A stretch of 64,000 bases of DNA from Effrenium voratum (taxonomy: Eukaryota; Sar; Dinophyceae; Suessiales; Symbiodiniaceae). The stretch is from the NCBI GenBank assembly GCA_963377175.1, contig CAUJNA010003503.1, positions 1 through 64,000 of the forward strand. The letters are read 5' to 3'. The notes beneath the pieces are model-generated. The model had not been told where the DNA came from, did no database searches, and saw only the letters and a program-made list of their open reading frames with translations. Position 1 is the first letter of the stretch, and every line of letters begins with the position of its first letter. The translations under genes were made by a program, and so were the position numbers. Of the stretch, positions 6,477 to 53,281 are shown in pieces.

Positions 6477-6599
6477 AACCTCTCTCTTTAGAGGGGGTTT
6501 CCCAAATGGATTCTATTCTACCTGACAGGCTCCTAGCACTCGTCCGTCCAGGAAACGACCTCAAGCCAGTGTCAAGGTATTTGGTGTTTTCAAACCTAT

Positions 6600-7400
6600 T
6601 TGGTGTTTTCAACCATTCGTAAAGTAGAGGCAATGGTTAAGCACTCAAGCTGGCAAAGAGATATCATTGACAACTTGAGTTTGGTTTTATGCATTTTCTC
6701 AATTGCTGCAGTTTTCACTCAGCTACAATCCAAGGCGCTAGAGGGCCAATGCAGGGGAGGGCAGGGGAAGGGGAGGGGGAGGAGGTTTGGGGGGGGGGGG
6801 TGCACGCTTGATGTTCTTACTCAACAGACACAATCATTTGTTCACTGCAAGGCAAACTGTGGATTCAAGAACACCCAAAGCAACACACAGAGCAACAACA
6901 TCAACCTGGAGACACGCGTCATGTGTCAGACAATTGACAAAAGCACACGTGCTGAATCAAAGAAAACTGCGCTTCCAGCCTGGGTAGTCGCCTTGTTCTC
7001 TTTCAGACTTGTGGGGTTGGGAGGATCAGCCAATGTCTTTTTCTACCAATTGCCACATCCTATCCCATGTGTGCCCACATAAATGCACAAGTTCATATAT
7101 GAGTTTCCCATCAACTTGCCTCTTGCAACAACTTACACCTTCCCTCATCCTCAAGGTAAATGGCTCACGTGGCAGTCATGTTTGTTGTTTGGTCGGGTTG
7201 TGTCGCATGTGTGTGTGCAGGATGTCTTACTAAGGAGTACTCAGGCACTGACTAAGGACTACTCAGGCACTGCCACAGGAAGACCCTCTTTTGCAAACTA
7301 AATTAGGACCCCACCGAAAGGTGGTAAGCGCCGAAAGGTGCAGGGCCGCTTTGTTTGTGCGTGGTGGACATGCTCTATCAGGCCGTTGGGTTGGGATGTG
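6600..7400. other. Non-coding part of left arm before the TATG array
   Basis: I see no supported gene. Notable are a run of G at 6790-6800, a duplicated (GGA)(C/G)TACTCAGGCACTGAC segment near 7235-7275, and CCGAAAGGTGGTAAGCG/CCGAAAGGTG near 7313-7340. In the right arm the last item is tandemly duplicated (52020-52120). Confidence 0.5.
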
Positions 7401-7429
7401 GGCAGTGGCTTCAAGGGAGCCTCATTATG

Positions 7430-7555
7430 TAAATGTGTATGTATGCATGAATGTAAGTATGTAGGTGTGTATGTGTGTATGCATGTACGTATGCGTGTAG
7501 TGTAATGTAATGTAATGTAGTGTGGTGTGGTGTAGTGAAATATTCTGTATGCATG

Positions 7556-7586
<31 letters not shown>

Positions 7587-7709
7587 TGTATGTATTGTAC
7601 GTATGCATGTATGTATGTATGTATGTATGTATGTATGTATGTATGCATGTGTGTGTGTGTGTATGTATTTATGTATGTATGTATGTATGTATGTATGTAT
7701 GTATGTATG

Positions 7710-7740
<31 letters not shown>

Positions 7741-7851
7741 TGTATGTATGCATGCATGCATGTATGTTTGTATGTATGTAATGTATGTAATGTATGTATG
7801 TATGTGTGTATGTATGTATGTTTGTTTGTATGTATGTATGTATACTGTATG

Positions 7852-7882
<31 letters not shown>

Positions 7883-9560
7883 GTATGTATGTGTGTATGC
7901 ATACACACATACATACTTACATACATACATACAGTATACATACATACAAACACACATACATACATACACACATACATACATACATACATACATTACATAC
8001 ATTTCATACATACATACATGCATGCATACATACTTACATTACATACAATCATACAAACAAACATACATACATACATTACATACATTACATACATAGAGAC
8101 ATACATACATACATACATGACAGACACACATACATACATTACATAGATACATTACATATATGTAATGTATGTATGTAATGTATGTATGTATGTATGCATG
8201 CATGTATATGTATGTGTGTAATGTATATAATGTATGTAATGGAAAATACAGTATGTAATGTATTTAATGTAGGTCTGTATGTGTGTCTGTCATGTACGTA
8301 TGTATGTATTTATGTATGTATGTATGTATGTATGTAATGTATGGAATGTATGGAATGTATGTATGTATGTATGTATGTATCTAATGTATGTGTGTTTGTC
8401 TGTAATGTAATGTATGTATGTATGTATGTAGGTATGTGTGAAATGTATGTATGTATGTATGTATATTTGCTATGTATGTATGTAGGTAGGTGTGTATGTA
8501 TGTACGTTACATGTATGTATGTGTGTATCCATGTCATGTAGACACGTATGCATGTATGTGTGTATGTACGTCATGTTATGTATGTTTGATGCATGTTCTG
8601 TAAGCATGCATGTTATGTATGCGTGTATGTATGTATGTAGGCATGTATGTAATGTATGTACGTATGTAGGTATGTAGGCATGTAGGTATGTAGGTATGTA
8701 TGTATACAGGTATAGAGGTATGAATGTATGTATGCAAATATGTATGCAATGTATGTATGTATGTAGTGTAATGTAATGCAATGCAATGTAATGTATGTAT
8801 GTATGTATGTAAGTAATGTATGTAATGATGTGTGTATGTATGTACGTATGGAAACACATGCTCGTATGTATGTTTGCGTGTATGCACGCAGTGGTATGAA
8901 ATGTATGTATTTATGCATGTGTGAGCAAGCAAGTAAGTATGTATGTATGGAGATGTGTATGTCTGCAATGAATGTTTGTATGTGTGTGTACTGGAATCTA
9001 AGTATCATGTATGTGTGCATGTAGGTATCAATGTACTGCAATGTACCTATGTTAGCATGTATGTATGCATTGATGTATGCATGCATGTATGTAATTTATC
9101 ATGGATGTAATGTGTGTGCGTCTGTGTGTACCCATGCATGCATGTCCACATGTGCTGATGTACTGTAATGTACCTATGTGAGCATGTATGCATGAATGTA
9201 TGTACCTATGCACGTATGTATGTATGCTCTGTAATGCAATTTGATGTAAGAGTAATGTAACGCAATGTATGTATGTGTGTATTGTATGAGTGTAATATGG
9301 ATACATAGACTATTTATCTTTGTGCGGATGTATGCATGTAGTATGTATGTAGGTCTGTATGTCTGTATGTAATGTATGTAATGTATGTATGTAATGTATG
9401 TATGTAATGTAATGTAATGTGATGTAATGTAGTGTAATGTAATGTAATGTAGTGTAAGTATGTATGTAATCTAATGTAATGTGATGTAATGTAATGTAGC
9501 GTAGTGATGTGTAATGTAATGTATGTATGTATGTATGTATGTATGTATGTATGTATATAC
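7430..9560 (+). repeat. TATG/CATA tetranucleotide array (left arm)
   Basis: About 2.1 kb of degenerate (TATG)n with AATG, TGTG and GCATG interruptions. The strand of the motif flips to CATA at 7900 and back at about 8160, so the array contains a long palindrome centred at 7899/7900. All open frames here (poly Tyr-Val-Cys-Met or Ile-His-Thr) come from the 4-bp period and are not genes. The mirror copy is at 49805-51930. Confidence 0.95.
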
Positions 9561-11841
9561 GGTATATATGCACGTATTGTGTGTGGTCAGTGGGTGTGGT
9601 TCGTGTTTTGGCTTATTACCAGGGCTGGAACACAGCCCTGGCTGAAGCTTCTGACATTGTTCGTTATGTGGCATCTTTGTTGTATGTTGACTGAGCCAAA
9701 CAGCCCAAGGCGCAGTTGGGCATTGTCTTCCTGTGGTTTGGCATGAAGCGGGGTCCGGCTGGAACTAAGGCTTCATGCTTGAACTAAGGACATCTTCATG
9801 AAGAACTGAGGCTTCAGCTTGAACTAAGGACTCCAAGGCGCCAGCAGGAATTGAGGCTCCAAAACAAATTTACGCTCCAGCTCGCATAAGCCCCAAGCTG
9901 GCCCGCGCAAACCCCTTGATGGTCCCCCTGAGTGCCGGCTGATGTTTGAGCTGCTGGGTTGCAGCAAAAACATGATTGGAAACTCCTCGATGCTGGGAAA
10001 CTGACGAGCGACCCCAATCTCGTGAGCTGCAAAAACAACTCTTGGTTTTGCATTGAAGTTGGCAAGCTGCGCATGCGCGTAAGGTATGACAACTGTCCAC
10101 CATTGCAATAGATGACGAACATGCGTCCAATGTAGTAGAGATAGCAAGGGCTGTTTGGGATGGTGAGCTTCCAAGTTGGCCTGGCCCACACGAAGACCTG
10201 ACCTGCAGATCTACATGTTCAACTTGCAGACCAGCTGCCATCGCAGAACACGGGTCCGAGGGGAGGGGGGGAAGGCCAGGGCAAACGCAACAATATATTG
10301 TCACTGCACCTCCAACATCCACAACTTCAGATCAGGGGCTTCACAAAGCTCATTTGCCAGTAAAGCTCAACTGGTCATCATTGAGGGGCTGAAGATTCAA
10401 GGGAGGCATTTTGCTGGCCATTGCAACTACCCCTTCATCCCACACTGTAAACACAAACAGCTGGCTCTCCAAGTCCTGCTAATGCTCAGGCATCATCCTG
10501 CATACTGATTGCAAATCAGTGAAACAACCAACAACCTCAAGGCCATCACAGAACTAAGTTGAAGGGCAGACCCTCATTTGTTCATTCATGATTTTCAGAA
10601 AGAGCCAAACTGCTGTTTCAAGAAACACCAGCATGCATGGCAAAACGCACCAAGCCAACCAAGACATCCACAGGCTGGCAAAGCACACCAAGCCAACTTA
10701 GATATCCACAACCTTTCATCATAATACAAGTTTGACGTGGTGAGGTTCCAATGCAAAGTTGACGTGTTAGGGAGTAATGCCTCTGCGTGCAGGTGAAATA
10801 GAAGTGGCAAAGCCTGTGCTCACACCCGCCGATGACAACAGTCATGTCTTAGTGTGTGCATGCGTTGTTGTGTGATTGTATCTACACCTATATTGTGTGA
10901 ACATGCACAACAACATGGCAGCATTTCTCATTGACCGTAGCTTCGGTGTAGTGAGCCTGAGGCACTGCGGGGTCTGGCGCAGGGCAGGGGAGGGAGGATT
11001 GCAGTGTGCTTACAGACACACTCATCAAGTGTAGTTGCTTCTTTATGGGCTAGTCAATAACAAACCTTTTGACACATGTTCTCACATTTGCTTGCAGCAG
11101 GAAAAGGCTCAGCAACCTCCAGGCCTTGCATCAATTTGAGATGTTCTTCCAGTGCTTCTTTGCAGCACTGCATCATCAACCATTCCTGGCGGCTATGACA
11201 TGATCCCCTGTGGCAGGGATCATGCCCCCACCCACAGGCTCCCAAAGAAGCTTGTTGGTGGTAAGGAACAATTGCAGGTCTCTCATTGGAAGGGCTCTGT
11301 TTCAGCCAAAGTATATCAGATGCACACCTGGCATTCATCACATAATCATTGATGAGGCACGTTTGCTGTTCAAGACATCCAGAAAGTAGCCCACATCATG
11401 TGCCAGACGATTGCAAAAGATGGGTGGCAAGACCTGAAAAAATCGCATAAGCTCTGCAAACTTAGGTGTTCAAATATTCATGTTGCAGGGTTACCTTTGT
11501 TTCTCTTTTTGGCATCAGCCACAGGGGGAGCTGGCTAAGGCTTGAACACCTGATGGCCCCTAAGGCCCCCTAAGCCCTAAGCCAAAACTGCCACGCAAGC
11601 CCAGACAGGTTACAGCCACTATGGGAAGACAACACGTGTGGTCACTGGCTTTGGGTCCTTCACATGCAGCCCTACAGGCAGTGATTCTCCAGATGCTTGG
11701 AGCCCAGAGCAGCCAGGCACACTTGCAGGGGAGCTAGTGCAGCATTATACCTAGCACACATGTTCGCAGCTTGTGTTCCAAGACCACTGGTATATCCTGG
11801 CACCCTTTTTTTTCTCACAGCACCCTTGCCAGGTTGAAACG
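9561..11841. other. Left arm segment without a recognised gene
   Basis: Open frames exist on both strands (for example minus-strand 10189-9824, 121 residues, identical in the right arm), but the arms are so alike that conservation says little. No domain is recognised. From 10692 on, this is the block absent from the right arm and present in inverted orientation at 29276-30926. Confidence 0.4.
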
Positions 11842-12610
11842 TCACTGGTGCTTTTGGCCTTTCAGCTGCTTCTTCAGAGCTCGGACCTGCTGCTCTGCTT
11901 CTTGCAACTTTTTCTTAAGTGCTGCTTTGTCGTCTTCAAGCACCTTCTTTGCCTCACACGGCAAGAGATCAGACAGCGCAAACAGACAGAGACAACATCA
12001 ATCAGAAATGCTCAGCACACACATGCACACAGCATCATCACCTTCTCTTCTTCTTCCAGCTTTTTCTTCCAGATCTGCAATCAAACAGCGTGCGCAGAGA
12101 CAACGCAAGAACACATGTTCAGCACACACATGCAAACATCATCGCCTGCTCCTCGCTCTCCAGTTTTTTCTTCCACACTATAAGGTGGCGCTCAAGAGTC
12201 TTATCAGTCGCACATTCGAGAGCTGTAGCACGTTTCTCTGCGTCCTGCTTCTCCTTCTTCAGCAGCCCTTGCGCTGAAATGCTGTTGTTTCTCTCCGCCC
12301 ACAACTTGTTTTTCAGCGATGCCACCTCCTTCTCGCAAGCTTCAATCTGCTTCTGGAAGCCCTCAGTGAGCTTCTTCTTCTCCTCCTGAAAATCCTCCTT
12401 CACCTTCTTCATCTCCTCCTTAAACTCCTGCTCTCTCTTACGCTTTTCGCGACGCCTCTCGTCCGCCATCTCTTTGGCCAAAGGAGTGCCAAACGCAAGA
12501 ATGAGCCAAGCTTCGAGCAACACGAGCGACAAGCCGACGACCAAGCATGCCAATAGCAAACTGGCCCAGCATCTTGTGAGCCGCACATCATGAGGCCAGC
12601 CCCAGGCCAA
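11842..12610 (-). CDS. Membrane-anchored coiled-coil protein, three exons (complete copy)
   Basis: Exon 1 runs to 12146, exon 2 is 12074-12042 (33 bp, 11 codons) and exon 3 is 11952-11842, ending in TGA. All junctions are phase 0. Intron 1 has GC-AG ends and intron 2 GT-AG ends. The protein starts with a hydrophobic segment (WASLLLACLVVGLSLVLL), a likely signal anchor, followed by a long Lys/Glu/Arg-rich coiled coil (KEMADERRREKRKREQEF onwards) to GQKHQ. No ATG precedes the membrane segment: the frame opens after a stop and reaches a TTG at 12610. The first ATG in frame is 12469 (MADERRR), so either the anchor is read from an upstream exon or the real protein begins at 12469. Exon 2 (IWKKKLEEEEK) duplicates the end of exon 1 (VWKKKLESEEQ). 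The function is unknown; a structural or scaffold role is only a guess. Confidence 0.6.
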
Positions 12611-15212
12611 GGTGTTCAGGCATCACATTGGCACATAGCACCCACGCTCCTCTTTTTTGTTGCTACAGCGCATTGAAAGTGAAGTCACGAATCCCGCCCG
12701 CAGCCAAGTTACCGCATGTAAATCCATGTTCCAGGGCCTGGCGTGGCGAGGTGTAAACCAACATGCCCCTCACAGCCAACGCCCCTCTTATTGTCTTTCT
12801 TGCACCAGGCCCTGGCAGAATTGGAGCCCGCTGCATCCCACTACGATAGGGGCTTCCGTGCAAAACCAAATAAAGACCCAACAGCTCATTCTTCTTCTTT
12901 GCATTTGATGCTGAGGCTGAACGACTGGTGATGCTCACCATCCTCATTGTCACCCTGGCAGGGCCCTCAACCAGCCTAGCCAGGATGTGGGAAAGGCCGA
13001 TTGACACGTCAACAGGGGCTATTTCCTTATTACAAAAGCCTATTTCCTCAGTACCAGGAGGACTCCCTTGTGTCACAAGATGTAAGGTGGAACAAGCAAA
13101 GCTGGCAAATCATGGGCTGTGCCTCATGGGCTTGCATTTGCAAACCCTGGCTCGAAACACAGCTGGTGATGTGCAAGTTGAACATGAAACCACCAGGGGA
13201 CCGCAGGATTCCACTTTCCAGGATTCCATGTTGGGTACACTTTTTTGACCGCAGCCAATCACAGCCATGTATCCGTGGCCGTGGCGTGGCGCCCTGGTCA
13301 ACTTTGGCACGATCAATGTGAACGTGGGCGGAGGCAAGACTCCATCAGACCGGCGGCGCGAACCCCGTCTGCAAAAAGTAGGCATGGAGGCGGGGTAACT
13401 TGTACATCTTCCAGGGCCTTGTGGGGGCTCTGCTTGTGGACATGACTATGCAGGGCCCATGCGCCATTCTCAAAATTCTTAGCCATGTTGGCTTCCCTTG
13501 CAAAAAAACGTGTCATACTTGACACCGCAGCAGAGCTCTCAGGATGAGCGGCGCCGCAAGAACATGGTTGTCCATGGCCACTTCGGGCAGCCTGGCATAC
13601 GTGTTGGGCTTCACATGCGACTCTCCTAAAAACTGGGGCATGTTCCATATAGAAATGATTAATGCCAAAACCAAGAACTGGATGTTCACTCTTACTCGAC
13701 TGTTTGGTGGGAAATTGAGAGGAGGCATGTGAAGGGATCTTATCTGAGGGCCACTGCCTGATGAGCCTCAGCCTCCCAACGAGCCGGGGCAGTCGCATCT
13801 TGGCTCTTTGTTCTTGACTCAAACAACCTTACAGTTGTTGGGGAAACGTGCCTTGTTCCACATGGCCTTGAGCGCCTCAGATCACGGCCTCCTGGTGCTG
13901 CTGAACAGCATCTTGGCAGCTTCAGCCACCCAACACACAGTCTCCAAAGTTGCGCTGAAATCCCATGATCTTTCCACAACTTGAAGTAGCTGGTCTTTGA
14001 AAGGTTCAGTCAGGCAGCCAGGCATATTGCATGGCATCTCAGGCGAGGCTCAAAGCGATCCTGGAGCGATGGGCCTTTTGAGGCTGTGGAGCCTGCAGAG
14101 CCTGCAGAGGCGAGGAGGCTGAGGAGCCTGAGCATCTTGGCATGGGTCGCCCCTCAACACACCTTGGCTAACACCTTATCTGATCACACCACCGTGGCAT
14201 CACTCACGACCTTGATCTTTTGCCTGCTGAAACCCTCTGTTCTGCCAGGACCTTGGTAGACTCAGGCATAGTGTGTGTGTGTCCTCTCAGGCATGTGGAA
14301 GAACACCTGGAGATCATCAGCGATGGGGAGCAGCATCTGGGCAGCAGTTTTAGCCCCCCAACATGCCTAGGCTAACAAATATTTTGTTCCTGAACTAGAT
14401 CAAGCGATGTCATGTGGCTCTTAGCTCCAAACTGAATCTATGCTTGAACTTCAATCCCTTGGAACATCTGGTCTTGTCAGGCATGAGCCTGTGGAAGAAG
14501 AGGAGCAGGAGGAGGAGGACGAGTGTCTTGACAGAGAGGGCGGGAGTTTTTGTGATGCTGGGCTCAGGGGTGTGCCAAGTGTTTGTCAGTTTTCCTGGCT
14601 CCATCTGAGGCAGCTGTTTCAGCAGCAGCTTGAGCGGCACCGCATCTCGGAGCTGGTGGTCGCGCAGTGCCCCTTCTTTGTGGGGCCATTCTTGGAGGTC
14701 ACCAGTCTGCATTCATCAGTGTGCTCCTGATTCAATTCAGATTTCTGTGTGCTCACGCTTGACTCACTGAATTTAGTCTGCTGATGCTAAGATGGAGCCA
14801 CTCCGGCACCTCATGCAGATCCTCCCGAAGATTGTGAACTGTCAGAAGAAAGAGCACCTTGGAGAGAAAGTGTAGCAAATAGGTCGAACCCCCAAAGTTT
14901 GGCCCGTGAAACGGACCCAGAGCGAGGGGCCATTTGGAACCCCTCAAGTTTGGCCCGCGAAACGGCCCCCTGCAGAAGTTGACCCAGTTTGGCCCCAAAC
15001 CCTTCTTTGCAGCATTGGTTAAAAGAGGAGCCGCTGATTCTTAAAGGCTCATCAGCCAACCGTTTCTATCAATTCGCAAGAGCTCACCCCCCTCAGCTCC
15101 CCCCCCCCCGCTTCGCCGAGTTGGCCGAAGTGTAGGAAGCTTGGCACCTTCGTAGATGGCTGCTTAGCGTTTTGCATTGCACCACCCAAGGGCAGCAGCG
15201 GCGGAGCGGGAG
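12611..15212. other. Left arm segment with CCAGG-palindrome elements, no firm gene
   Basis: Two palindromes (CCAGGGCCTGG at 12731-12741 and CCAGGCCCTGG at 12805-12815) bracket a short unit whose relatives recur in introns nearby. Open frames at 13313-13822 (minus) and 14410-14712 (minus) read like protein in places (for example RDHQLRDAVPLKLLLKQL), but the first is shifted by small indels in the other arm, so I do not call genes. Near 14880-14970 the phrase TTTGGCCCG(T/C)GAAACGG(A/C)CC is repeated twice. Confidence 0.4.
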
Positions 15213-16607
15213 ATGGCGGCGGTTTGGGGGGCCAAATTCACGGCGGCCAACCCGAACCACCTGAAAAAGGACCTGCAGGGGCAACTTGGTTTCAACGCGA
15301 CGCGATGTTTGTTTATTGGCTGGACGTATGGCTGTTGAACCAAAGTTTTGTTCTCATGCAAGAAGAAAAGAACTATCAAAGGACACCTCGTCCCCCCGCC
15401 CCCCCGCAGTCAAGCCTGACACTATGCGTGCTAATGTTTTTTTTAGTCATTCAAGTTTTGCATTAGTTCTTCTTCTTTGCCCAATTTTTGATACGTTGGG
15501 TCCTGGCTGCGTTGATTCCAACTGAAGCGTGCATTGGCTTCCCTCTTCTTTTAAAGGCAACAGTCCATGTTCCAGGGCCTGGCATGGTAATGTGCCTGTT
15601 TGCATTCCCCTGACCACCAAGGACTCCCCTTTTTAAAATCCAGGCCCTGGCAGAAACAAGATCCACGACAATATGTTTTGAACTTTGGGGTGTGCATGAG
15701 TTAAGCCTACACAGGTTTTGATTTGTGCCACACACCATATCATAGCCTCTCTCGATGCTTCACTTCTGCCAGTTGCCTAATGGTCACGGCAGTTCTTCAC
15801 CTAGTGGGGGGCACCACCTTCTGCGTCAGCAGCTTCTGAAACATAAGTTTGCGCGACAGGCGCTATCCTTCGTCAGGGTGGTGGCAAAGGTAGGGGCCGA
15901 ACTCCGCATATCTTTTACGAAATTGATGTGCGCCCTGCCCGGAACTTGTTTTTCCAGGCCCTGGCCAAAATCAGGACCCACTATTTTATGTGGAGTGTCA
16001 TTACCTGCCCTTGGCTTTGCTGTGTTCCAAATCCCGGTTGCGTTGTTTCCAAACATTGAAGTGTGCATTGGCTTCACTCCTCCTTTGTTGATGAGTCAAT
16101 CAACATTCCCCTCAGCACCAATAAATACCAAGTCCAGTAGTGGAATTTCTCTGCAGAATCCACCAGAACCCACCCCTAAAGCTCAATGCATCCTTAGGTG
16201 GCGCAGCGCTCTGGCGCCAGTTCAGGTGTGGGTTGAGCAACGAGATGGGCCGATCTACTGCCACTGCAACGCGGGCCAGGTTCGCTCGGTGATGGTCACG
16301 ATCCTTCTCGTTTCCCTGGGCTGCAACATCCAGCATCGCTATGGGAAGGTTCGGGAGGTCATGGAGACCTTCGGCGAGCTGCCCGCCAGCAAGTTCATGC
16401 AAGTCTGCGTGTCTGTTTGCTCATGTGACACGTCGCAAGCTCAAGTCAGCATGCTTCCTCAGGACGCTTCGCTTCTTGAAGGAGAACGAGGCGGTGATCT
16501 GGCCAAGGCCAAGGCCGAAGAAGCGAGGCTTGGCTGCAGCAATCGAAGTCTTTCATCGAAGTCAGCTCCAAACTTGGACTCGTCCATTGTCTTGTGTCTG
16601 CAACTGA
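15213..16607 (+). CDS. Small protein with a phosphatase-type HCX5RS loop, three exons (uninterrupted copy)
   Basis: Exon 1 is 15213-15325 (ATG inside GAGATGG), exon 2 is 16198-16402 and exon 3 is 16440-16607, ending in TGA. The introns are 872 bp (GT-AG, phase 2) and 37 bp (GT-AG, phase 0), and the frame is kept throughout, giving 161 residues. Residues 59-68 read YCHCNAGQVRS: His60, Cys61 and Arg67 fit the HCX5R loop of cysteine-based phosphatases, followed by Ser68 and a hydrophobic helix (VTILLVSLGC) as in dual-specificity phosphatases. The rest is too short for a full catalytic domain, and the general-acid Asp is not evident, so it could be a truncated phosphatase, a rhodanese-like protein or a chance match. 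Exon 3 is basic (RPRPKKRG). Intron 1 is packed with CCAGG-palindrome elements. The right-arm copy has its exon 2 interrupted. Confidence 0.5.
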
Positions 16608-17438
16608 GGACCGCGGCCTGCCGCCAACTGAGCGCGGACTGCCTGGCCTGGCGAATGAAAACAGGGGCCTGCGCAGCATGACTTGCAGCGGGTGATTTGG
16701 GTTGATGGGCCTTGCTTGTCTGCAGCTTCTTGCCCGCCCGAGGCCTGAACATCACAGCGCTGGCCCAAGAGTGCAGTCTCTGGGTCTGGGTCTTTTTGCA
16801 AGGATGTGAGATGTTGCCACCTGCAGTGTGCGAGTCATGAAGCAACACGTGTCGTCAAGCATCCTGCTCTTCGCTGTTTGAAAACCGACTTCCCCCCCTG
16901 CCATGACCAAAAGCCCTTCTTTTTCATGGGAAGCATCTTCTTGGCGAAGCAGCTGGCGTCTCCCCCACTCCCCCTGCCTCACTGTCTGCTACTCCCCTGC
17001 CTGCTGCCCAGGCACCAAGCTCCGTCGCTTGGCAGGGCAGCCTCGCCCCTCCCAGCGCACCCGCCGAGCCGAAAACAACAGAACAGCAGTCGGTTGGGCG
17101 TGCGGGTCGGGAGTGGCGGAGATGGAAGTAATGAAAGGAAGCCCCCCAAGCAGCCAACAAGTAAACTAATGGCCCTAAAGTTTACTTAAAGCTTACTTGC
17201 CAAAATCCACGTCTGGGGATACACTTGAACAAACGCTTGCACTGCCAGGCCACTGGAACATGCATCTTGTTTTTCACACGCCGTCTGAAAAATCACATGC
17301 TTCACACTTGATTGACTGGAACCAACAAGTAAGGTTTATTCAAAATGTTGACATTGGCGTCTCTTTGCATCCTCTTGTTGTATAGCTCAGCGCACATCCT
17401 GCTCCAATGTGTGAAATGAAAAATCAGGCGCTGGGTTG
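16608..17438. other. Inner end of left arm, no supported gene
   Basis: A minus-strand frame (16848-16459, with MDESKFGADFDERLRL) overlaps the phosphatase-like exon 3 in antisense; both cannot be fully coding and I prefer the spliced plus-strand model. The arm homology ends at about 17195. Position 17324-17352 matches 43007-43035, beside the other arm, in direct orientation at 25 of 29 bases. Confidence 0.4.
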
Positions 17439-27293: not shown

Positions 27294-27548
27294 GCTGCAA
27301 ATATGAAGCTACCTCCATCCACAGGCCAATGTGGAAAAAGGTGTGGGATAAGCGGAAGCGGCCGAGAATCTCATTGCAGTTTCCATTTGCTTTCAAAGAC
27401 CAGGTGGCCATGCATTTCACTGATGAGTGCCCTTATGTCACCAAGGCTCCGTGTGATGACAGCTCGATCCTCAGTCATGGCTCACAGCTCACAGGTCCAG
27501 CAAATTGCAAAGTGGATGTGATGAGAGTTGCGGCTTCACTTTCAGCAG

Positions 27549-28633: not shown

Positions 28634-28656
28634 TGCACAGCAGTTTCACAGGTGGT

Positions 28657-29207: not shown

Positions 29208-29275
29208 AGTTGAGGGGGGCTGAGGGGAAAGAACTGGGCATTGAGACCCGCCGCATCCCCTGAACCCCGCTCAAC

Positions 29276-30926: not shown

Positions 30927-30927
30927 G

Positions 30928-41389: not shown

Positions 41390-42720
41390 TAAAGCACTCA
41401 GGACATGGAAGCGTTACAACAGGCACATTACACAGGCACGTGTTCACGGTCTTGGTGGCTTTGAGTCTCCAAAGCTACCATCATTTTCAGGAAGTGCACC
41501 CCAACAATGCACCATACCAGGTCCTGGAAGTAAGGCAGCTGAACATCCACAAACCCAGGACCTGGAAACATTGATTACACAGGCATGTGGTTCTTGTTTG
41601 GGTCATTTTGAGTTTCTAAAGCTACCATCATTCTCAGGAAGGGCGCCCCAACAATGCACCACACCAGGTCCTGGAACTCAGGAAGCTGAACATCCAGAAG
41701 CCCAGGACCTGGAAACATTCATTACACAGGCGTGTGGTTCATGTTTTGGTCCAAAGCCACCATCATTTTCAGGAAGGGCACCCCAACAATGCACCATACC
41801 AGGTCCTGGAAGTAAGGCAGCTGAACATCCACCAACCCAGGACCCATCATTTTCAGGAAGGGCACCCCAACAATGCACCGTACCAGGTCCTGGAACTCAG
41901 GAAGCTGAACATCCAGAAGCCCAGGACCTGGAAACATTCAGCACACAGGCGCGTGGTTCATGTTTTGGTCATTTTGAGCCTCCAAAGCCACCATCATTTT
42001 CAGGAAGGGCGCCCCAACAATGCCCCATACCAGGTCCTGGAACTAAGGCAGCTGAACATCCGCAAGCCCAGGACCTGGAAACATTCATTACACAGGCATG
42101 TGGTTCATTTTTCTGGCCATTTTGAGTCTCCAATGCTACCATCATTTTTGGGAAGGGCACCCCAACAATGCCCCATACCAGGTCCTGGAAGTAAGGCAAA
42201 GTGACATCCACAAACCCAGGACCTGGAAACATTACACAGGCATGTTGTTTATGTCTTGGTGGTTTTGATTCTCCAAAGCTACCATCATTTTTGGGAAGGG
42301 CGCCCCAACAATGTCCCATACCAGGTCCTGGAAGTACGGCAAGTGAACATCCACAAACCCAGGACCTGGACACATTACGCAGGCGTGCTGTTCATGTCTT
42401 GGTGGTTTTGATTTTGCAAAGCTACCATCATTTTTGGGAAGGGCGCCCCAACAATGTCCCATACCAGGTCCTGGAAGTAAGGCGACTGAAAACCCACAAA
42501 GAGAGCCAAACCCCCAGGACCTGGACACATTACATAGGCACGTGTTCATGGTCTTGGCACTTCTGCATTGTTGGATCTGCCTCCAGAACTGGAGCCCGGT
42601 TTGTTTCCAGAACCCCTCACAACATGACCCAGACGATTCAACACACCAGGTCCTGGAAGATAAGAGGTCAAACATCAAGCGTGGGAACTTCCAGGACCTG
42701 GAAGCACATAATCATAGGAA
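41390..42720 (+). repeat. Tandem array of about 148-bp units built on CCAGG(T/A)CCTGG palindromes
   Basis: About eight units run head to tail. Each has CAC/CGCCCCAACAATG(C/T)(A/C)CC(A/G)(T/C)ACCAGGTCCTGGAA, about 40 bp, then CCCAGGACCTGGAAACATT, then about 90 bp ending TACCATCATTTT(C/T). Palindromes were located at about 41517, 41555, 41664, 41702, 41808, 41882, 41923, 42030, 42068, 42178, 42218, 42320, 42360, 42466, 42515, 42647 and 42690. One unit is shortened near 41830. The last units diverge. The long open frame through 41211-42125 is a by-product of repetition. Confidence 0.9.
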
Positions 42721-43880
42721 GCCAGCAGCGCAACCCAAGTTTGAAGGGCAGGTGTTTTCAGAGCAACGTGCAGGCTGAGTGCACATTGCACACATGTGCT
42801 TGCAAGTTCCCCGTCAGCACGCAGCCAACTGAGGAAGAACATGACGATTGCCTCCATTCTAAATCGTCAAAATTGCTATGACAAATTACCAGCGAGACCT
42901 TTTTTAGGAGGATCCCACTCCCACACAGTGCCAGTTGCTGATGGGAATTCATAACTTGTGTTTCTCCCAGCTGCTTGATAGCATTCCTTGCTTGAGAGGC
43001 ATTGTCAACAAGTAATGTTTGCACAAAATGTTGACGACCTTGGTAAGTAAGCTTTAGGGCCATTAGTTTACTTGTTGGCTGCTTGGGGGGCTTCCTTTCA
43101 TTACTTCCATCTCCGCCACTCCCGACCCGCACGCCCATTTTCGGCTCGGCGGGTGCCTGGGAGGGGCGAGGCTGCCCTGCCAAGTGACGGAGCTTGGTGC
43201 CTGGGCAGCAGGCAGGGGAGTAGCAGACAGTGAGGCAGGGGGAGTGGGGGAGACGCCAGCTGCTTCGCCAAGAAGATGCTTCCCATGAAAAAGAAGGGCT
43301 TTTGGTCATGGCAGGGGGGGAAGTCGGTTTTCAAACAGCGAAGAGCAGGATGCTTGACGACACGTGTTGCTTCATGACTCGCACACTGCAGGTGGCAACA
43401 TCTCACATCCTTGCAAAAAGACCCAGACCCAGAGACTGCACTCTTGGGCCAGCGCTGTGATGTTCAGGCCTCGGCGGGCAAGAAGCTGCAGACAAGCAAG
43501 GCCCATCAACCCAAATCACCCGCTGCAAGTCATGCTGCGCAGGCCCCTGTTTTCATTCGCCAGGCCAGGCAGTCCGCGCTCAGTTGGCGGCAGGCCGCGG
43601 TCCTCAGTTGCAGACACAAGACAATGGACGAGTCCAAGTTTGGAGCTGACTTCGATGAAAGACTTCGATTGCTGCAGCCAAGCCTCGCTTCTTCGGCCTT
43701 GGCCTTGGCCAGATCACCGCCTCGTTCTCCTTCAAGAAGCGAAGCGTCCTGAGGAAGCATGCTGACTTGAGCTTGCGACGTGTCACACGAGCAAACAGAC
43801 ACGCAGACTTGCATGAACTTGCTGGCGGGCAGCTCGCCGAAGGTCTCCATGACCTCCCGAACCTTCCCATAGCGATGCTG

Positions 43881-44709
43881 CTTTTTCACGAGCTTTGCCT
43901 GGGCAAGGAATCTGTCACGCCAGGCCCTGGAACATGAATTGTTGGCTTTAAAGAAAGTGGGAAGCCAGCCTACAGAAACCAGGACCTGGAACAGAACAAA
44001 GCCAGTGTACGGCTCAATCATGGACATCCCAAAGTTCAATCCATATTGTAGTGGTTTACTAAATCTACCAGGGCCTGGGTAAACAAAAACAAAAGGACGG
44101 CAAATTGGTGGTGAGGGGAATGTTCATTGACAGACACATCACATGCCAACATGTTCACTTCAATGTTTGGAAACACATCAAAAGCAAGCGCAGGCAGAAA
44201 TTAATGCTGACACTCCAATGTGTGAACACGAAATAGCAGGACACATCAAATTCGTCCAATATATGTGCCAGGGAGGAGTGGAGTGTGGGGTCTTATTTTG
44301 CCAGGGCCTGGTACAATAATGAAAAAGAAGGGAGGCGTTGGCGGTGAGGGGAATGTTTTTTTGACATGTCACCCTGCCAGGGAGCATGGATTTTTGATTT
44401 TGAAGGAGGAGGTGAAAGGCAATCTACACTTCAATGGTTGGACACAAAGTGTCCAGGACGTAGAAAAAAAGTAGCCGAGTGTATAGCTAGCTTATGCGCA
44501 TCCCGAAGTTCAAACCCATGTCGTAGTGGGCTCCAACCCAGCCAGGACCAGGCTAAGAAAGACAGCAAAAAACGCCAAAGAAAACACAAGAATAAAGCTT
44601 GGATTTTGCCAGGGCCTGGACAAAACAAGAAAGGCATTGGCAATAAGGAGAATAAGATGGAACAAATGCCAACACAATGGAATGGCAAGGAGCAGAGTCC
44701 GCAATGCTG
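43881..44709 (-). mobile_element. 829-bp arm-specific insertion with 9-bp flanking repeats (candidate introner)
   Basis: Absent from the left arm at the matching site (16333). GCGATGCTG at 43872-43880 and GCAATGCTG at 44701-44709 flank it as a near-perfect direct repeat, while the left arm has a single copy. Inside are four CCAGGNCCTGG palindromes (43920, 43979, 44068 and 44301, with another at 44609) and GGTGAGGGGAATGTT phrases like those in intron 1 of the same gene. Confidence 0.75.
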
Positions 44710-45076
44710 ATGTTGCAGCCCAGGGAAACGAGAAGGATCGTGACCATCACCGAGCGAACCTGGCCCGCGTTGCAGTGGCAGTAGATCGGCCCATCTCGTT
44801 GCTCAACCCACACCTGAACTGGCGCCAGAGCGCTGCGCCACCTAAGGATGCATTGAGCTTTAGGGGTGGGTTCTGGTGGATTCTGCAGAGAAATTCCACT
44901 ACTGGACTTGATATTTATTGGTGCTGAGGGGAATGTTGATTGACTCATCAACAAAGGAGGAGTGAAGCCAATGCACACTTCAATGTTTGGAAACAACGCA
45001 GCCGGGATTTGGAACACAGCAAAGCCAAGGGCAGGTAGAATGACACTCCACATAAAATAGTGGGTCCTGATTTTGG

Positions 45077-45469
45077 CCAGGGCCTGGAAAAACAAGTTCC
45101 GGGCAGGGCGCACATCAAATTCGTAAAAGATATGCAGAGTTCGGCCCCTACCTTTGCCACCACCCTGACGAAGGATGGCGCCTGTCGCGCAAACTTATGT
45201 TTCAGAAGCTGCTGACGCAGAAGGTGGTGCCCCCCACTAGGTGAAGAACTGCCGTGACCATTAGGCAACTGGCAGAAGTGAAGCATCGAGAGAGGCTATG
45301 ATATGGTGTGTGGCACAAATCAAAACCTGTGTAGGCTTAACTCATGCACATCCCAAAGTTCAAAACATATTGTCGTGGATCTTGTTTCTGCCAGGGCCTG
45401 GATTTTAAAAAGGGGAGTCCTTGGTGGTCAGGGGAATGCAAACAGGCACATTACCATGCCAGGCCCTGG
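45077..45469. repeat. CCAGG-palindrome elements within intron 1 (right arm)
   Basis: CCAGGGCCTGG at 45077-45087 and 45391-45401 and CCAGGCCCTGG at 45459-45469, with the intervening AAGGGGAGTCCTTGGTGGTCAGGGGAATG-type unit. The counterparts in the left arm are 15572-15582, 15640-15650 and 15954-15964. Confidence 0.8.
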
Positions 45470-48291
45470 AACATGGACTGTTGCCTTTAAAAGAAGAGGG
45501 AAGCCAATGCACGCTTCAGTTGGAATCAACGCAGCCAGGACCCAACGTATCAAAAATTGGGCAAAGAAGAAGAACTAATGCAAAACTTGGAAGGCAAAAA
45601 AAAACATTAGCACGCATAGTGTCAGGCTTGACTGCGGGGGGGCGGGGGGACGAGGTGTCCTTTGATAGTTCTTTTCTTCTTGCATGAGAACAAAACTTTG
45701 GTTCAACAGCCATACGTCCAGCCAATAAACAAACATCGCGTCGCATTGAAACCAAGTTGCCCCTGCAGGTCCTTTTTCAGGTGGTTCGGGTTGGCCGCCG
45801 TGAATTTGGCCCCCCAAACCGCCGCCATCTCCCGCTCCGCCGCTGCTGCCCTTGGGTGGTGCAACGCAAAACGCTAAGCAGCCATCTACGAAGGTGCCAA
45901 GCTTCCTACACTTCGGCCAACTCGGCGAAGCTGGGGGGGGGGAGCTGAGGGGGGTGAGCTCTTGCGAATTGATAGAAACGGTTGGCTGATGAGCCTTTAA
46001 GAATCAGCGGCTCCTCTTTTAAAGAATGCTGCAAAGAAGGGTTTGGGGCCAAACTGGGTCAACTTCTGCAGGGGGCCGTTTCGCGGGCCAAACTTGAGGG
46101 GTTCCAAATGGCCCCTCGCTCTGGGTCCGTTTCACGGGCCAAACTTTGGGGGTTCGACCTATTTGCTACACTTTCTCTCCAAGGTGCTCTTTCTTCTGAC
46201 AGTTCACAATCTTCGGGAGGATCTGCATGAGGTGCCGGAGTGGCTCCATCTTAGCATCAGCAGACTAAATTCAGTGAGTCAAGCGTGAGCACACAGAAAT
46301 CTGAATTGAATCAGGAGCACACTGATGAATGCAGACTGGTGACCTCCAAGAATGGCCCCACAAAGAAGGGGCACTGCGCGACCACCAGCTCCGAGATGCG
46401 GTGCCGCTCAAGCTGCTGCTGAAACAGCTGCCTCAGATGGAGCCAGGAAAAATGACAAACACTTGGCACACCCCTGAGCCCAGCATCACAAAAACTCCCG
46501 CCCTCTCTGTCAAGACACTCGTCCTCCTCCTCCTGCTCCTCTTCTTCCACAGGCTCATGCCTGACAAGACCAGATGTTCCAAGGGATTGAAGTTCAAGCA
46601 TAGATTCAGTTTGGGGCTAAGAGCCACATGACATCGCTTGATCTAGTTCTGTCTATCCGCATTCAAGGAGTGTTGCGCTGCCATGCTGGTGTGAGGAACA
46701 AAATATTTGTTAGCCTAGGCATGTTGGGGGGCTAAAACTGCTGCCCAGATGCTGCTCCCCATCGCTGATGATCTCCGGGTGTTCTTCCACATGCCTGAGA
46801 GGACACACACACACACTATGCCTGAGTCTACCAAGGTCCTGGCAGAGCAGAGGGTTTCAGCAGGCAAAAGATCAAGGTCGTGAGTGATGCCACGGTGGTG
46901 TGATCAGATAAGGTGTTAGCCAAGGTGTGTTGAGGGGCGACCCATGCCAAGATGCTCAGGCTCCTCAGCCTCCTCAGCCTCCTCAGCCTCCGCAGGCTCT
47001 GCAGGCTCCACAGCCTCAAAAGGCCCATCGCTCCAGGATCGCTTTGAGCCTCGCCTGAGATGCCATGCAATATGCCTGGCTGCCTGACTGAACCTTTCAA
47101 AGACCAGCTACTTCAAGTTGTGGAAAGATCATGGGATTTCAGCGCAACTTTGGAGACTGTGTGTTGGGTGGCTGAAGCTGCCAAGATGCTGTTCAGCAGC
47201 ACCAGGAGGCCGTGATCTGAGGCGCTCAAGGCCATGTGGAACAAGGCACGTTTCCCCAACAACTGTAAGGTTGTTTGAGTCAAGCCAAACAAAGAGCCAA
47301 GATGCGACTGCCCCGGCTCGTTGGGAGGCTGAGGCTCATCAGGCAGTGGCCCCCTCAGATAAGAACCCTTCACATGCCTCCTCTCAATTTCCCACCAAAC
47401 AGTCGAGTAAGAGTGAACATCCAGTTCTTGGCTTTGGCATTAATCATTTCTATATGGAACATGCCCCAGTTTTTAGGAGAGTCGCATGTGAAGCCCAACA
47501 CGTATGCCAGGCTGCCCGAAGTGGCCATGGACAACCATGTTCTTGCGGCGCCGCTCATCCTGAGAGCTCTGCTGCGGTGTCAAGTATGACACGTTTTTTT
47601 GCAAGGGAAGCCAACATGGCTAAGAATTTTGAGAATGGCGCATGGGCCCTGCATAGTCATGTCCACAAGCAGAGCCCCCACAAGGCCCTGGAAGATGTAC
47701 AAGTTACCCCGCCTCCATGCCTACTTTTTGCAGACGGGGTTCGCGCCGCCGGTCTGATGGAGTCTTGCCTCCGCCCACGTTCACATTGATCGTGCCAAAG
47801 TTGACCAGGGCGCCATGCCACGGCCACGGATACATGGCTGTGATTGGCTGTGGTCAAAAAAGTGTACCCAACATGGAATCCTGGAAAGTGGAATCCTGCG
47901 GTCCCCTGGTGGTTTCATGTTCAACTTGCACATCACCAGCTGTGTTTCGAGCCAGGGTTTGCAAATGCAAGCCCATGATCCCTGGCACAGCCCATGATTT
48001 GCCAGCTTTGCTTGTTCCACCTTACATCTTGTGACACAAGGGAGTCCTCCTGGTACTGAGGAAATAGGCTTTTGTAATAAGGAAATAGCCCCTGTTGACG
48101 TGTCAATCGGCCTTTCCCACATCCTGGCTAGGCTGGTTGAGGGCCCTGCCAGGGTGACAATGAGGATGGTGAGCATCACCAGTCGTTCAGCCTCAGCATC
48201 AAATGCAAAGAAGAAGAACCAGCTGTTGGGTCTTTATTTGGTTTTGCACGGAAGCCCCTATCGTAGTGGGATGCAGCGGGCTCCAATTCTG

Positions 48292-48376
48292 CCAGGGCCT
48301 GGTGCAAGAAAGACAATAAGAGGGGCGTTGGCTGTGAGGGGCATGTTGGTTTACACCTCGCCGCGCCAGGCCCTGG
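48292..48376. repeat. Minimal CCAGG-bounded unit (right arm)
   Basis: CCAGGGCCTGG (48292-48302) and CCAGGCCCTGG (48366-48376) bound an 85-bp unit containing GGCGTTGGCTGTGAGGGGCATGTT. The mirror copy is at 12731-12815. Confidence 0.85.
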
Positions 48377-48493
48377 AACATGGATTTACATGCGGTAACT
48401 TGGCTGCGGGCGGGATTCGTGACTTCACTTTCAATGCGCTGTAGCAACAAAAAAGAGGAGCGTGGGTGCTATGTGCCAATGTGATGCCTGAAC

Positions 48494-48790
48494 ACCTTGG
48501 CCTGGGGCTGGCCTCATGATGTGCGGCTCACAAGATGCTGGGCCAGTTTGCTATTGGCATGCTTGGTCGTCGGCTTGTCGCTCGTGTTGCTCGAAGCTTG
48601 GCTCATTCTTGCGTTTGGCACTCCTTTGGCCAAAGAGATGGCGGACGAGAGGCGTCGCGAAAAGCGTAAGAGAGAGCAGGAGTTTAAGGAGGAGATGAAG
48701 AAGGTGAAGGAGGATTTTGGTGTGCTTTGCCAGCCTGTGGATGTCTTGGTTGGCTTGGTGCGTTTTGCCATGCATGCTGGTGTTTCTTGA
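48494..48790 (+). pseudogene. 5' part of the coiled-coil gene, joined to foreign sequence
   Basis: This carries the membrane anchor and first coil (to EEMKKVKEDF) of the left-arm gene, then runs into sequence that lies 1.7 kb further on in the left arm (GVLCQPVDVLVGLV), with an in-frame stop at 48788. The junction is GGATTTT|GGTGTGC, sharing TT with the lost end, a typical end-joining deletion scar. The missing 3' part of the gene is at 29276-29796. Confidence 0.7.
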
Positions 48791-49804
48791 AACAGCAGTT
48801 TGGCTCTTTCTGAAAATCATGAATGAACAAATGAGGGTCTGCCCTTCAACTTAGTTCTGTGATGGCCTTGAGGTTGTTGGTTGTTTCACTGATTTGCAAT
48901 CAGTATGCAGGATGATGCCTGAGCATTAGCAGGACTTGGAGAGCCAGCTGTTTGTGTTTACAGTGTGGGATGAAGGGGTAGTTGCAATGGCCAGCAAAAT
49001 GCCTCCCTTGAATCTTCAGCCCCTCAATGATGACCAGTTGAGCTTTACTGGCAAATGAGCTTTGTGAAGCCCCTGATCTGAAGTTGTGGATGTTGGAGGT
49101 GCAGTGACAATATATTGTTGCGTTTGCCCTGGCCTTCCCCCCCTCCCCTCGGACCCGTGTTCTGCGATGGCAGCTGGTCTGCAAGTTGAACATGTAGATC
49201 TGCAGGTCAGGTCTTCGTGTGGGCCAGGCCAACTTGGAAGCTCACCATCCCAAACAGCCCTTGCTATCTCTACTACATTGGACGCATGTTCGTCATCTAT
49301 TGCAATGGTGGACAGTTGTCATACCTTACGCGCATGCGCAGCTTGCCAACTTCAATGCAAAACCAAGAGTTGTTTTTGCAGCTCACGAGATTGGGGTCGC
49401 TCGTCAGTTTCCCAGCATCGAGGAGTTTCCAATCATGTTTTTGCTGCAACCCAGCAGCTCAAACATCAGCCGGCACTCAGGGGGACCATCAAGGGGTTTG
49501 CGCGGGCCAGCTTGGGGCTTATGCGAGCTGGAGCGTAAATTTGTTTTGGAGCCTCAATTCCTGCTGGCGCCTTGGAGTCCTTAGTTCAAGCTGAAGCCTC
49601 AGTTCCAGCCGGACCCCGCTTCATGCCAAACCACAGGAAGACAATGCCCAACTGCGCCTTGGGCTTTTTGGCTCAGTCAACATACAACAAAGATGCCACA
49701 TAACGAACAATGTCAGAAGCTTCAGCCAGGGCTGTGTTCCAGCCCTGGTAATAAGCCAAAACACGAACCACACCCACTGACCACACACAATACGTGCATA
49801 TATA
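48791..49804. other. Right-arm mirror of 9561-10690, no firm gene
   Basis: The mirror open frames (for example 49219-49584, plus strand) are identical to the left arm, with no recognisable domain. Confidence 0.4.
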
Positions 49805-51501
49805 CCGTATATACATACATACATACATACATACATACATTACATTACACATCACTACGCTACATTACATTACATCACATTACATTAGATTACATACATA
49901 CTTACACTACATTACAGTACATTACACTACATTACATCACATTACATTACATTACATACATACATTACATACATACATTACATACATTACATACAGACAT
50001 ACAGACCTACATACATGCATACATCCGCACAAAGATAAATAGTCTATGTATCTATATTACACTCATACAATACACACATACATACATTGCATTACATTAC
50101 TCTTACATCAAATTGCATTACAGAGCATACATACATACGTGCATAGGTACATACATTCATGCATACATGCTCACATAGGTACATTACAGTACATCAGCAC
50201 ATGTGGACATGCATGCATGGGTACACACAGACGCACACACATTACATCCATGATAAATTACATACATGCATGCATACATCAATGCATACATACATGCTAA
50301 CATAGGTACATTGCAGTACATTGATACCTACATGCACACATACATGATACTTAGATTCCAGTACACACACATACAAACATTCATTGCAAACATACACATC
50401 TCCATACGTACATACTTACTTGCTTGCTCACACATGCATAAATACATACATTTCATACCACTGCGTGCATACACGCAAACATACATACGAGCATGTGTTT
50501 CCATACGTACATACATACACACATACATCATTACATACATTACTTACATACATACATACATACATTACATTCCATTGCATTACATTACACTACATACATA
50601 CATACATTGCATACATATATGCATACATACATTCATACATCTATACCTGTATACATACATACCTACATACCTACATGCCTACATACCTACATACGTACAT
50701 ACATTACATACATGCCTACATACATACATACACGCATACATAACATGCATGCTTACAGAACATGCGTCAAACATACATAACATGACGTACATACACACAT
50801 ACATGCATACGTGTCTACATGACATGGATACACACATACATACATGTAACGTACATACATACATACCTACCTACATACATACATAGCAAATATACATACA
50901 TACATACATACATTTCACACATACCTACATACATACATACATACATTACATTACAGACAAACACACATACATGAGATACATACATACATACATACATACA
51001 TTCCATACATTCCATACATTACATACATACATACATACATACATAAATACATACATACGTACATGACAGACACACATACAGACCTACATTAAATACATTA
51101 CATACTGTATTTTCCATTACATACATTACATACATTACACACATACATATACATGCATGCATACATACATACATACATACATTACATACTTACATTACAT
51201 ATATGTAATGTATCTATGTAATGTATGTATGTGTGTCTGTCATGTATGTATGTATGTATGTCTGTATGTATGTATGTATGTATGTCTCTATGTATGTAAT
51301 GTATGTAATGTATGTATGTATGTTTGTTTGTATGATTGTATGTAATGTATGTATGTATGCATGCATGTATGTATGTATGAAATGTATGTAATGTATGTAT
51401 GTATGTATGTATGTGTGTATGTATGTATGTATGTTTGTATGTATGTATACTGTATGTATGTATGTAAGTATGTATGTGGGTATGCATACACACATACATA
51501 C

Positions 51502-51532
<31 letters not shown>

Positions 51533-51651
51533 CATACATACATACAGTATACATACATACATACAAACAAACATACATACATACACACATACATACATAC
51601 ATTACATACATTACATACATACAAACATACATGCATGCATGCATACATACA

Positions 51652-51682
<31 letters not shown>

Positions 51683-51930
51683 CATACATACATACATACA
51701 TACATAAATACATACACACACACATGCATACATACATACATACATACATACGTACAATACATACATAAATACATACATACATACATACATACATACATGC
51801 ATACAGAATATTTCACTACACCACACCACACTACATTACATTACATTACACTACATGCATACGTACATGCATACACACATACACACCTACATACTTACAT
51901 TCATGCGTACATACACATTTACATAATGAG
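49805..51930 (-). repeat. TATG/CATA tetranucleotide array (right arm)
   Basis: Mirror of 7430-9560, with small length differences. The palindrome centre lies at about 51485, where one base change (GTGGGTATG against GTGTGTATG) makes it imperfect. Confidence 0.95.
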
Positions 51931-52865
51931 GCATACATAAACACACTCCCTTGAAGCCACTGCCCACATCCCAACCCAACGGCCTGATAGAGCATGTCCA
52001 CCACGCACAAACAAAGGGGCCCTGCGCCTTTCGGCGCTTACCACCTTTCGGCGGGGTCCTAATTTAGTTTGCAAAAGAGGGGTCCTGCACCTTTCGGCGC
52101 TTACCACCTTTCGGTGGGGCTAGTTTTTATGCCCTGCCTCTTCCTTCCTGTGGCAGTGCCTGAGTAGTCCTTAGTCAGTGCCTGAGTACTCCTTAGTAAG
52201 ACATCCTGCACACACACACATGCGACACAACCCGACCAAACAACAAACATGACTGCCACGTGAGCCATTTACCTTGAGGATGAGGGAAGGTGTAAGTTGT
52301 TGCAAGAGGCAAGTTGATGGGAAACTCATATATGAACTTGTGCATTTATGTGGGCACACATGGGATAGGATGTGGCAATTGGTAGAAAAAGACATTGGCT
52401 GATCCTCCCAACCCCACAAGTCTGAAAGGGAACAAGGCGACTACCCAGGCTGGAAGCGCAGTTTTCTTTGATTCAGCACGTGTGCTTTTGTCAATTGTCT
52501 GACACATGACGCGCGTCTCCAGGTTGATGTTGTTGCTCTGTGTGTTGCTTTGGGTGTTCTTGAATCCACAGTTTGCCTTGCAGTGAACAAATGATTGTGT
52601 CTGTTGAGTAAGAACATCAAGCGTGCACCCCCCCCCCCCAAACCTCCTCCCCCTCCCCTTCCCCTGCCCTCCCCTGCATTGGCCCTCTAGCGCCTTGGAT
52701 TGTAGCTGAGTGAAAACTGCAGCAATTGAGAAAATGCATAAAACCAAACTCAAGTTGTCAATGATATCTCTTTGCCAGCTTGAGTGCTTAACCATTGCCT
52801 CTACTTTACGAATGGTTGAAAACACCAAATAGGTTTGAAAACACCAAATACCTTGACACTGGCTT
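51931..52865. other. Right-arm mirror of 6565-7420
   Basis: It contains two tandem copies of GCGCTTACCACCTTTCGG(C/T)GGGG (about 52035 and 52098), where the left arm has one. No gene is supported. Confidence 0.5.
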
Positions 52866-53202
52866 CCTCGTCCTGCGAAGGATTCGAAACCTAAAACGCT
52901 GCGTGGAGGCGTGTGGCTGCAAAATAATGACCCCGAGATATGCGTCGCAATTTGGCTCCAGGTTGCATTTCAAGCGAGGTCAAGCTTTGCCAAAGGAAAA
53001 CCCTTTTCGCTTTCTTTTCGGGACCCCTTTTTTTTGGGACCCCTTGTTTTCTTTTTGTTTTGTTTTTTTCTTAGCCCTGCAAAGGTTGGCTCGCTTGAAA
53101 TGCAACCTGGAGCCAAATTGCGACGCATATCTCGGGGTCATTATTTTGCAGCCACACGCCTCCACGCAGCGTTTTAGGTTTCGAATCCTTCGCAGGACGA
53201 GG
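52866..53202. mobile_element. 337-bp fold-back/MITE-like element with 113-bp inverted ends
   Basis: 52866-52978 (CCTCGTCCTGCGAAGGATTC...) and 53090-53202 are almost perfect reverse complements. The 110-bp centre is pyrimidine-rich (CTTTTCGGGACCCC, long T tracts). The left arm has only GAGGTCGTTTC at the matching site (about 6555), so it is present in one arm only. No transposase is encoded. Confidence 0.85.
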
Positions 53203-53281
53203 TCAAATGCTGGACGGACGAGTGCTAGGAGCCTGTCAGGTAGAATAGAATCCATTTGGGAAACCCCCTCTAAAGAGAGAG

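Follow-up and report, generated by a model that had tools for sequence, protein, structure and literature searches.

Starships, large fungal elements, carry a tyrosine recombinase (YR) captain gene at one outer end together with short direct repeats, and inverted arms are, to our knowledge, no feature of theirs; Cryptons are small and are bounded by very short repeats. According to excerpts of PMC5890265, the SymbioDIRS-Dnmt3 retrotransposons of Symbiodinium carry a reverse transcriptase, and the DIRS reverse transcriptases of Symbiodinium align poorly with Pfam. A different kind of arrangement is found at human fold-back junctions: for 21 sequenced cases, excerpts of PMC3907307 give unduplicated spacers of 766-70,466 bp, below 15 kb in 20 of the 21, with an inverted microhomology of 2-8 bp in 13 cases, longer homology in 3 and insertions in 5. 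Here we analyze a 64,000-nucleotide stretch of the dinoflagellate Effrenium voratum (assembly GCA_963377175.1, contig CAUJNA010003503.1, positions 1 to 64,000 of the forward strand; hereafter the window), in which two inverted 10-kb arms enclose a 26-kb core that carries a YR gene and a C5-cytosine methyltransferase gene. An earlier note on this DNA had proposed that arms and core moved as one giant mobile unit, with a plain inverted duplication followed by insertions as the alternative. Our analysis favors a recent origin by inverted segmental duplication in the dinoflagellate nuclear genome, through fold-back or template switching, with the 26-kb core as its unduplicated spacer (probability roughly 0.6).

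The inverted arms, their junctions and their divergence

The features concerned are the following.

6480..17203, plus strand: arm A, the probable copy; it matches arm B as a reverse complement, 41 of 6765 positions differing in ten aligned blocks
43040..53281, minus strand: arm B, probably the donor; keeps 828 bp that arm A lacks, and protein P0130 of another record has this longer form too
17204..43039, unstranded: unduplicated 25.8-kb core between the arms (self-BLAST)
10690..12388, unstranded: 1699 bp in arm A, apparently lost by arm B; its ends show 2-bp microhomology and no target-site duplication, and the adjacent 38-bp tandem repeat continues into it
43881..44708, unstranded: 828 bp in arm B, probably deleted from arm A; longer form in P0130 of another record
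52866..53209, unstranded: element of about 344 bp with 125-bp terminal inverted repeats (52866-52990 / 53079-53202), in arm B only
41425..42701, plus strand: 143-bp tandem array and its edge, with 17 of the 32 CCAGGNCCTGG motifs (repeat and motif scans)

Self-BLAST of the window identifies arms A and B as reverse complements of each other and confirms that the inverted arrangement is real. The outer ends at 6480 and 53281 are those given in the earlier note, which had also correctly described an enclosed core of 26 kb and flanks that share nothing beyond these two positions; its inner ends, 17195 and 43043, were roughly right in location and a few bases away from the exact ends, 17203 and 43040, which we read from the sequence. 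Local tandem repeats aside, only 29276-30929 of the core has a second copy in the window. The note's description of the arms as reverse complements apart from a few large indels stands as far as the indels are concerned, and has to be extended by the 41 mismatches (99.4 % identity) and by smaller private indels. Outside the ten blocks compared lie a microsatellite (7431-9559), all large indels, the final 15 bases of either arm and positions 6552-6562, which adjoin the inverted-repeat element of arm B and where several bases differ between the arms. A whole-arm MAFFT alignment misplaces both the outer and the inner ends, and end counts were therefore not taken from it; the outermost 72 bp of the arms are identical.

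The differences between the arms can in part be assigned a direction. The 2-bp microhomology, the lack of a target-site duplication and the 38-bp tandem repeat (10638-10710) running on into the arm A-only sequence make the 1699-bp difference look like a loss from arm B. The 828-bp difference is probably a loss from arm A, because P0130 reads through the longer, arm B form. P0130 and arm B mismatch at 3 of 187 residues, with a frame change near the start of P0130, and this protein represents three sequences on two contigs (source 'ena'), from which arm-like sequence may be present elsewhere. P0131 is a more distant relative of the arm protein (about 80 % over 69 residues), and the best that Pfam offers for an arm open-reading frame (ORF) is a DSPc match of 18.6 bits, under the cut-off of 33.5 and too weak for a gene name. 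For the 344-bp element, insertion into arm B and excision from arm A with a footprint are both possible, since several bases differ between the arms beside it. Further indels measure 61, 44, 41 and 40 bp and less. Substitutions are unevenly spread, with 0 differences in 887 bases of one block and 17 in 1938 of another (Fisher p = 0.003, for blocks chosen after viewing), which suggests gene conversion between parts of the arms. Transitions counted by eye give arm A an A/T excess of 19 vs 8 that is not significant (p = 0.052).

Read from core to arm, both inner junctions consist of TTGG, then C or T, then AAGTAAGCTTTA; at that of arm A only, an extra, nearly duplicated AGTAAACTTTA follows AAGTAAGCTTTA. 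The inverted match at the inner junctions, TTGGYAAGTAAGCTTTA, is 17 nt long with 1 mismatch, and an 11-bp imperfect duplication adjoins it on the arm A side. This pattern suits fold-back priming with slippage, without amounting to proof. At the outer ends no target-site duplication is present in 20 bp of flank per side: the longest direct k-mers shared by these flanks are 4 bp long (GATC, GCCA) and lie at non-matching places, and an inverted 6-mer, GATCAA, is also shared.

The distribution of the motif CCAGGNCCTGG bears on which arm was copied. Exact copies number 32 in the window, against 0.14 expected, with 17 in the tandem array (41.4-42.7 kb), 5 in arm A, 10 in arm B and 0 in the flanks; some of them, in array and arms alike, are followed by AACAT or AAACAT. 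The 41.4 kb made up of the left core and the flanks contain none, where about 40 would be expected at the density of arm B. Allowing up to one mismatch raises the count to 43, including 4 in 17204-41400 and 2 in the flanks, so that the earlier statement that the motif occurs only inside the unit holds for exact copies and fails at one mismatch. Because exact copies occur in arm B and the adjoining core end and are absent elsewhere in those 41.4 kb, arm B and the right end of the core appear to have been neighbors originally, and arm B is probably the donor and arm A the copy. As a marker of a mobile unit the motif was rejected: it belongs to the tandem array and to an arm repeat family, and none of its copies lies at an arm end.

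Both arms also contain a 2-kb microsatellite of TGTA type (7436-9556 and 49811-51915). The left flank (1-6474) contains tandem repeats of CATATAGCA type and repeats of 43 bp that reach the outer end of arm A, with a GC content rising to 63 %, and includes an ORF (924-1979) that resembles by eye the RNase H end of a retroelement and has no Pfam match. A long TTG and TGGT microsatellite occupies 58137-58991 of the right flank.

Genes and repeats of the core

Within the core, five further features were delineated.

17439..18362, minus strand: YR gene with an 84-bp GC-AG intron, 17632-17715 (tblastn with relatives; Pfam PF00589)
25678..27293, plus strand: C5-cytosine methyltransferase gene, divergent and interrupted by a 108-bp GA-AG intron, 25995-26102 (Pfam PF00145, 38.9 bits, cut-off 22; relatives)
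17323..17352, plus strand: direct repeat, left copy, 119 bp inside the inner end of arm A and 86 bp past the YR stop; 26/30 identical to 43006-43035
43006..43035, plus strand: direct repeat, right copy, 4 bp inside the inner end of arm B
29177..30958, unstranded: core segment bounded by 31-nt inverted repeats and holding a 1655-bp arm copy (11 mismatches and 1 gap column vs arm A)

A tyrosine recombinase gene is indeed present in the core, with the catalytic motifs R, HxxR, H and Y distributed on both sides of the intron; its PF00589 match reaches 23.9 bits, below the cut-off of 27.1. The catalytic R, H, R, H and Y are invariant across 15 aligned relatives, picked by hand from the list. Among the best 120 of 185 relatives, 13 break at the intron position by motif count (11 run into other sequence and 2 end), 102 are continuous and 5 are unclassed; the break occurs in 7 of the 9 best matches. 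One of the 120 is named, as Symbiodinium natans, and two bear 'Skav' labels, which we take to stand for Symbiodinium kawagutii. The GC-AG and GA-AG ends of the two core introns fit dinoflagellates. No YR relative was confirmed on the viral contigs or in the prokaryotic genomes searched.

The methyltransferase gene may not be intact: its first part (25678-25857) lies in another frame than the rest, and the change, between 25857 and 25914, would correspond to a further intron or to a frameshift. C5 methyltransferases usually carry PCQ in motif IV and ENV in motif VI; here ECDDIS and ECV stand at these places (26294-26470). Both variants are invariant in seven aligned relatives, a set that includes three mutually close sequences. 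The nine matches do not all share ECDDIS, which the two most distant lack; P0128 and P0129 (E about 3e-06), left out of the alignment (A1), have the usual PCQ and ENV. Two of the nine relatives are named, both as Effrenium voratum, and P0121, from another record, differs from the gene in the window at 2 of 393 residues. The modeled structure of the relative P0122 (mean predicted local distance difference test, pLDDT, 68.9) has DNMT5 as its best PDB fold (E 3.9e-17). No methyltransferase relative was confirmed on the viral contigs searched.

Pfam was run on ten ORFs first and then on core ORFs of at least 80 amino acids (99 of 102, the other three being the YR, methyltransferase and array ORFs scanned earlier), arm A ORFs of at least 70 (49 of 49) and flank ORFs of at least 85 (68 of 68); ORFs that were shorter, of low complexity, in the tandem array, in 29176-30958 or in arm B lie outside this set. 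No transposase or reverse transcriptase family was recognized in the ORFs scanned, a result that short or split exons could escape, and no match suggesting mobility was obtained in arm A or, besides the YR, in the core. We attributed the weak matches in the flanks (Mso1_Sec1_bdg, 2.3e-05; Calici_PP_N, 4.5e-04) and in the core (zf-C2H2_2 and MccV, both about 0.005) to chance or low complexity. Scans of the window with Rfam (gathering scores) and for tRNAs returned nothing.

With up to 9 mismatches allowed, the 30-nt direct repeat has no copies in the window beyond these two. On the minus strand, each copy starts with GTCAACATTTTG and finishes with TTACTTGTTG, and the ends of the right copy, GTCAACA/TGTTGAC, are mutually inverted; in our own reading the repeat may loosely be called lox-like. 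In a random control drawn outside low-complexity regions, 2 of 6000 pairs of 200-bp window stretches contained a direct match of at least 26/30, the repeat pair itself having been found by a scan and tested afterwards. The lox-like pattern and the outer-end sequence each occur 0 times in viral contigs.

The arm-like piece of the core, 29276-30929, duplicates positions 10708-12362 of arm A; the two differ by 11 mismatches and 1 gap column in 1655 (0.7 % divergence, similar to that between the arms). At its two ends it stops no more than 18 and 26 bp from the limits of the piece lost from arm B. As a guess, it may be that piece.

Explanations for the arrangement

The locus is most likely an inverted duplication ordinary in kind. 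A broken end beyond the core would have folded back, or replication would have switched template, at the short inverted match TTGGYAAGTAAGCTTTA, and DNA synthesis, running outwards along arm B, would have continued up to a junction with the left flank, leaving the core as an unduplicated loop. Arm A would later have lost 828 bp and arm B 1.7 kb, the small inverted-repeat element would have come to distinguish the arms, and gene conversion may have homogenized part of them. The YR and methyltransferase genes would be residents of the core whose participation is not needed. Of the alternative put forward in the earlier note, the duplication is what fits best, and the insertions supposed to follow it are replaced by two large indels that look like deletions (1.7 kb in arm B, 0.8 kb in arm A). 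Several observations weigh against this explanation. The 25.8-kb spacer is longer than 20 of the 21 human spacers in the excerpts of PMC3907307 (<15 kb); the inverted match at the inner junctions is inseparable from the last bases of the arms; and the choice of donor depends on a local repeat family and a single protein, P0130. Further copies of arm-like sequence, which the two contigs of P0130, whether other loci or other assemblies, may represent, are not predicted by a one-off duplication, nor does plain duplication explain the 30-nt direct repeat at both core ends beside the YR gene. This repeat is the one feature that plain duplication leaves unexplained, and on its account we retain a two-step explanation, in which the inverted duplication first arose with its arms only about 150 bp apart and the core was inserted afterwards as a YR-mobilized DNA element with the methyltransferase as cargo. 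We regard this account as unlikely, although ahead of the other alternatives. Its more specific form is slightly less probable: the core from 17323 to 43035 (25.7 kb) would be a DNA element with an intron-bearing YR, lox-like 30-nt sites and a DNMT5-like cargo, inserted in the short spacer of a 10-kb palindrome. The position of the two repeats, 119 bp (left) and 4 bp (right) from where the arms begin, their 26/30 match, confined to two copies in the window and equaled by so few random pairs (2 of 6000), and the YR gene with its catalytic motifs 86 bp from one of them are consistent with insertion. So are the 10-nt part of the repeat, CAACAAGTAA, which has one further copy in each arm, close to the inner end, and no other exact occurrence, and the longest contig of 392116 bp listed for both the YR relative P0077 and the methyltransferase relative P0122. 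Yet this shared length concerns one of seven close methyltransferase matches (P0121-P0127) set against the best 120 of 185 YR relatives, and does not prove a single contig. The repeat is a single instance tested only after its discovery by scan, its two copies differ in the middle, as a strictly homology-requiring recombinase would not leave them, and the motif family that the right core end shares with arm B argues against that end being foreign.

An assembly artefact that joined two alleles, or a chimeric read, in head-to-head orientation would account for the near identity of the arms, but we consider it improbable, and more so than insertion of the core. Scattered substitutions, deletions private to one arm or the other and the inverted-repeat element confined to arm B indicate arms with separate histories since copying, which a read-through artefact would not show, and the 26-kb loop with its differing flanks is unlike a read folding back on itself; in excerpts of PMC10522408, moreover, the Symbiodiniaceae assemblies used there are called haploid, which would argue against alleles here. 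Least probable is that arms and core constitute a single giant mobile element, the arms serving as its 10-kb terminal inverted repeats. The inverted arms with their identical outermost 72 bp, the YR gene and the further arm copies that P0130 makes possible (three sequences on two contigs) would agree with it, but the claim that the whole moved as one unit finds no support in the outer flanks, which have no target-site duplication in 20 bp per side, in the scanned arm A ORFs, where no recombinase or transposase was recognized, or in the location of the YR inside the core instead of at an outer end. The longest contigs differ as well, at 312629 bp for the near-identical methyltransferase P0121 and 417653 bp for P0130, a weak argument given that P0130 is on two contigs. 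A 47-kb mobile unit is thus not supported; a smaller unit, the core alone, could be mobilized by the YR.

A recent inverted segmental duplication in a dinoflagellate can be used to ask how these unusual chromosomes repair breaks. Should the core instead be an element, it would constitute a large YR-based DNA element of dinoflagellates with a methyltransferase cargo, and its YR gene family would gain a testable function.

Comparison with described systems

At the level of protein fold, the model of the YR relative P0004 (mean pLDDT 73) matches XerH best in the PDB, followed by the Tn1549 integrase and Cre. Of these, XerH and Cre have dif- and lox-type sites as their substrates. The likeness is limited by low TM-scores, 0.36-0.42 for the ten best matches, and by a model that is weak at 201-230, in the C-terminal catalytic part. 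With Starships the locus has in common its large size and a YR gene, here close to one of the core ends; it differs in that this YR is set back about 11 kb from the outer end, the outer ends have no direct repeat, and the host is a dinoflagellate. Cryptons, compared by general description only, likewise combine a YR gene with the lack of a recognized reverse transcriptase.

The SymbioDIRS-Dnmt3 elements, as far as excerpts of PMC5890265 describe them, resemble the core in bringing together a YR and a C5 methyltransferase in a Symbiodiniaceae-like genome. They differ in their reverse transcriptase: here neither reverse transcriptase nor RNase H was found in the 99 core ORFs scanned, a difference that is not absolute given the poor Pfam alignment stated in the same excerpts. 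In addition, the methyltransferase relative modeled here folds nearest DNMT5, both core genes contain an intron, and in place of split repeats in the order A-coding-B-A-B, none of which was seen, there is one pair of direct repeats at the core ends.

The human fold-back duplications, in the excerpts of PMC3907307, span megabases and adjoin terminal deletions, translocations or rings, whereas the arms described here measure 10 kb, have flanks on both sides and belong to a dinoflagellate. They nevertheless share with this locus inverted copies around an unduplicated spacer and a range of spacer lengths that includes 25.8 kb, and possibly a short inverted match at the edge, inseparable here from the arm ends.

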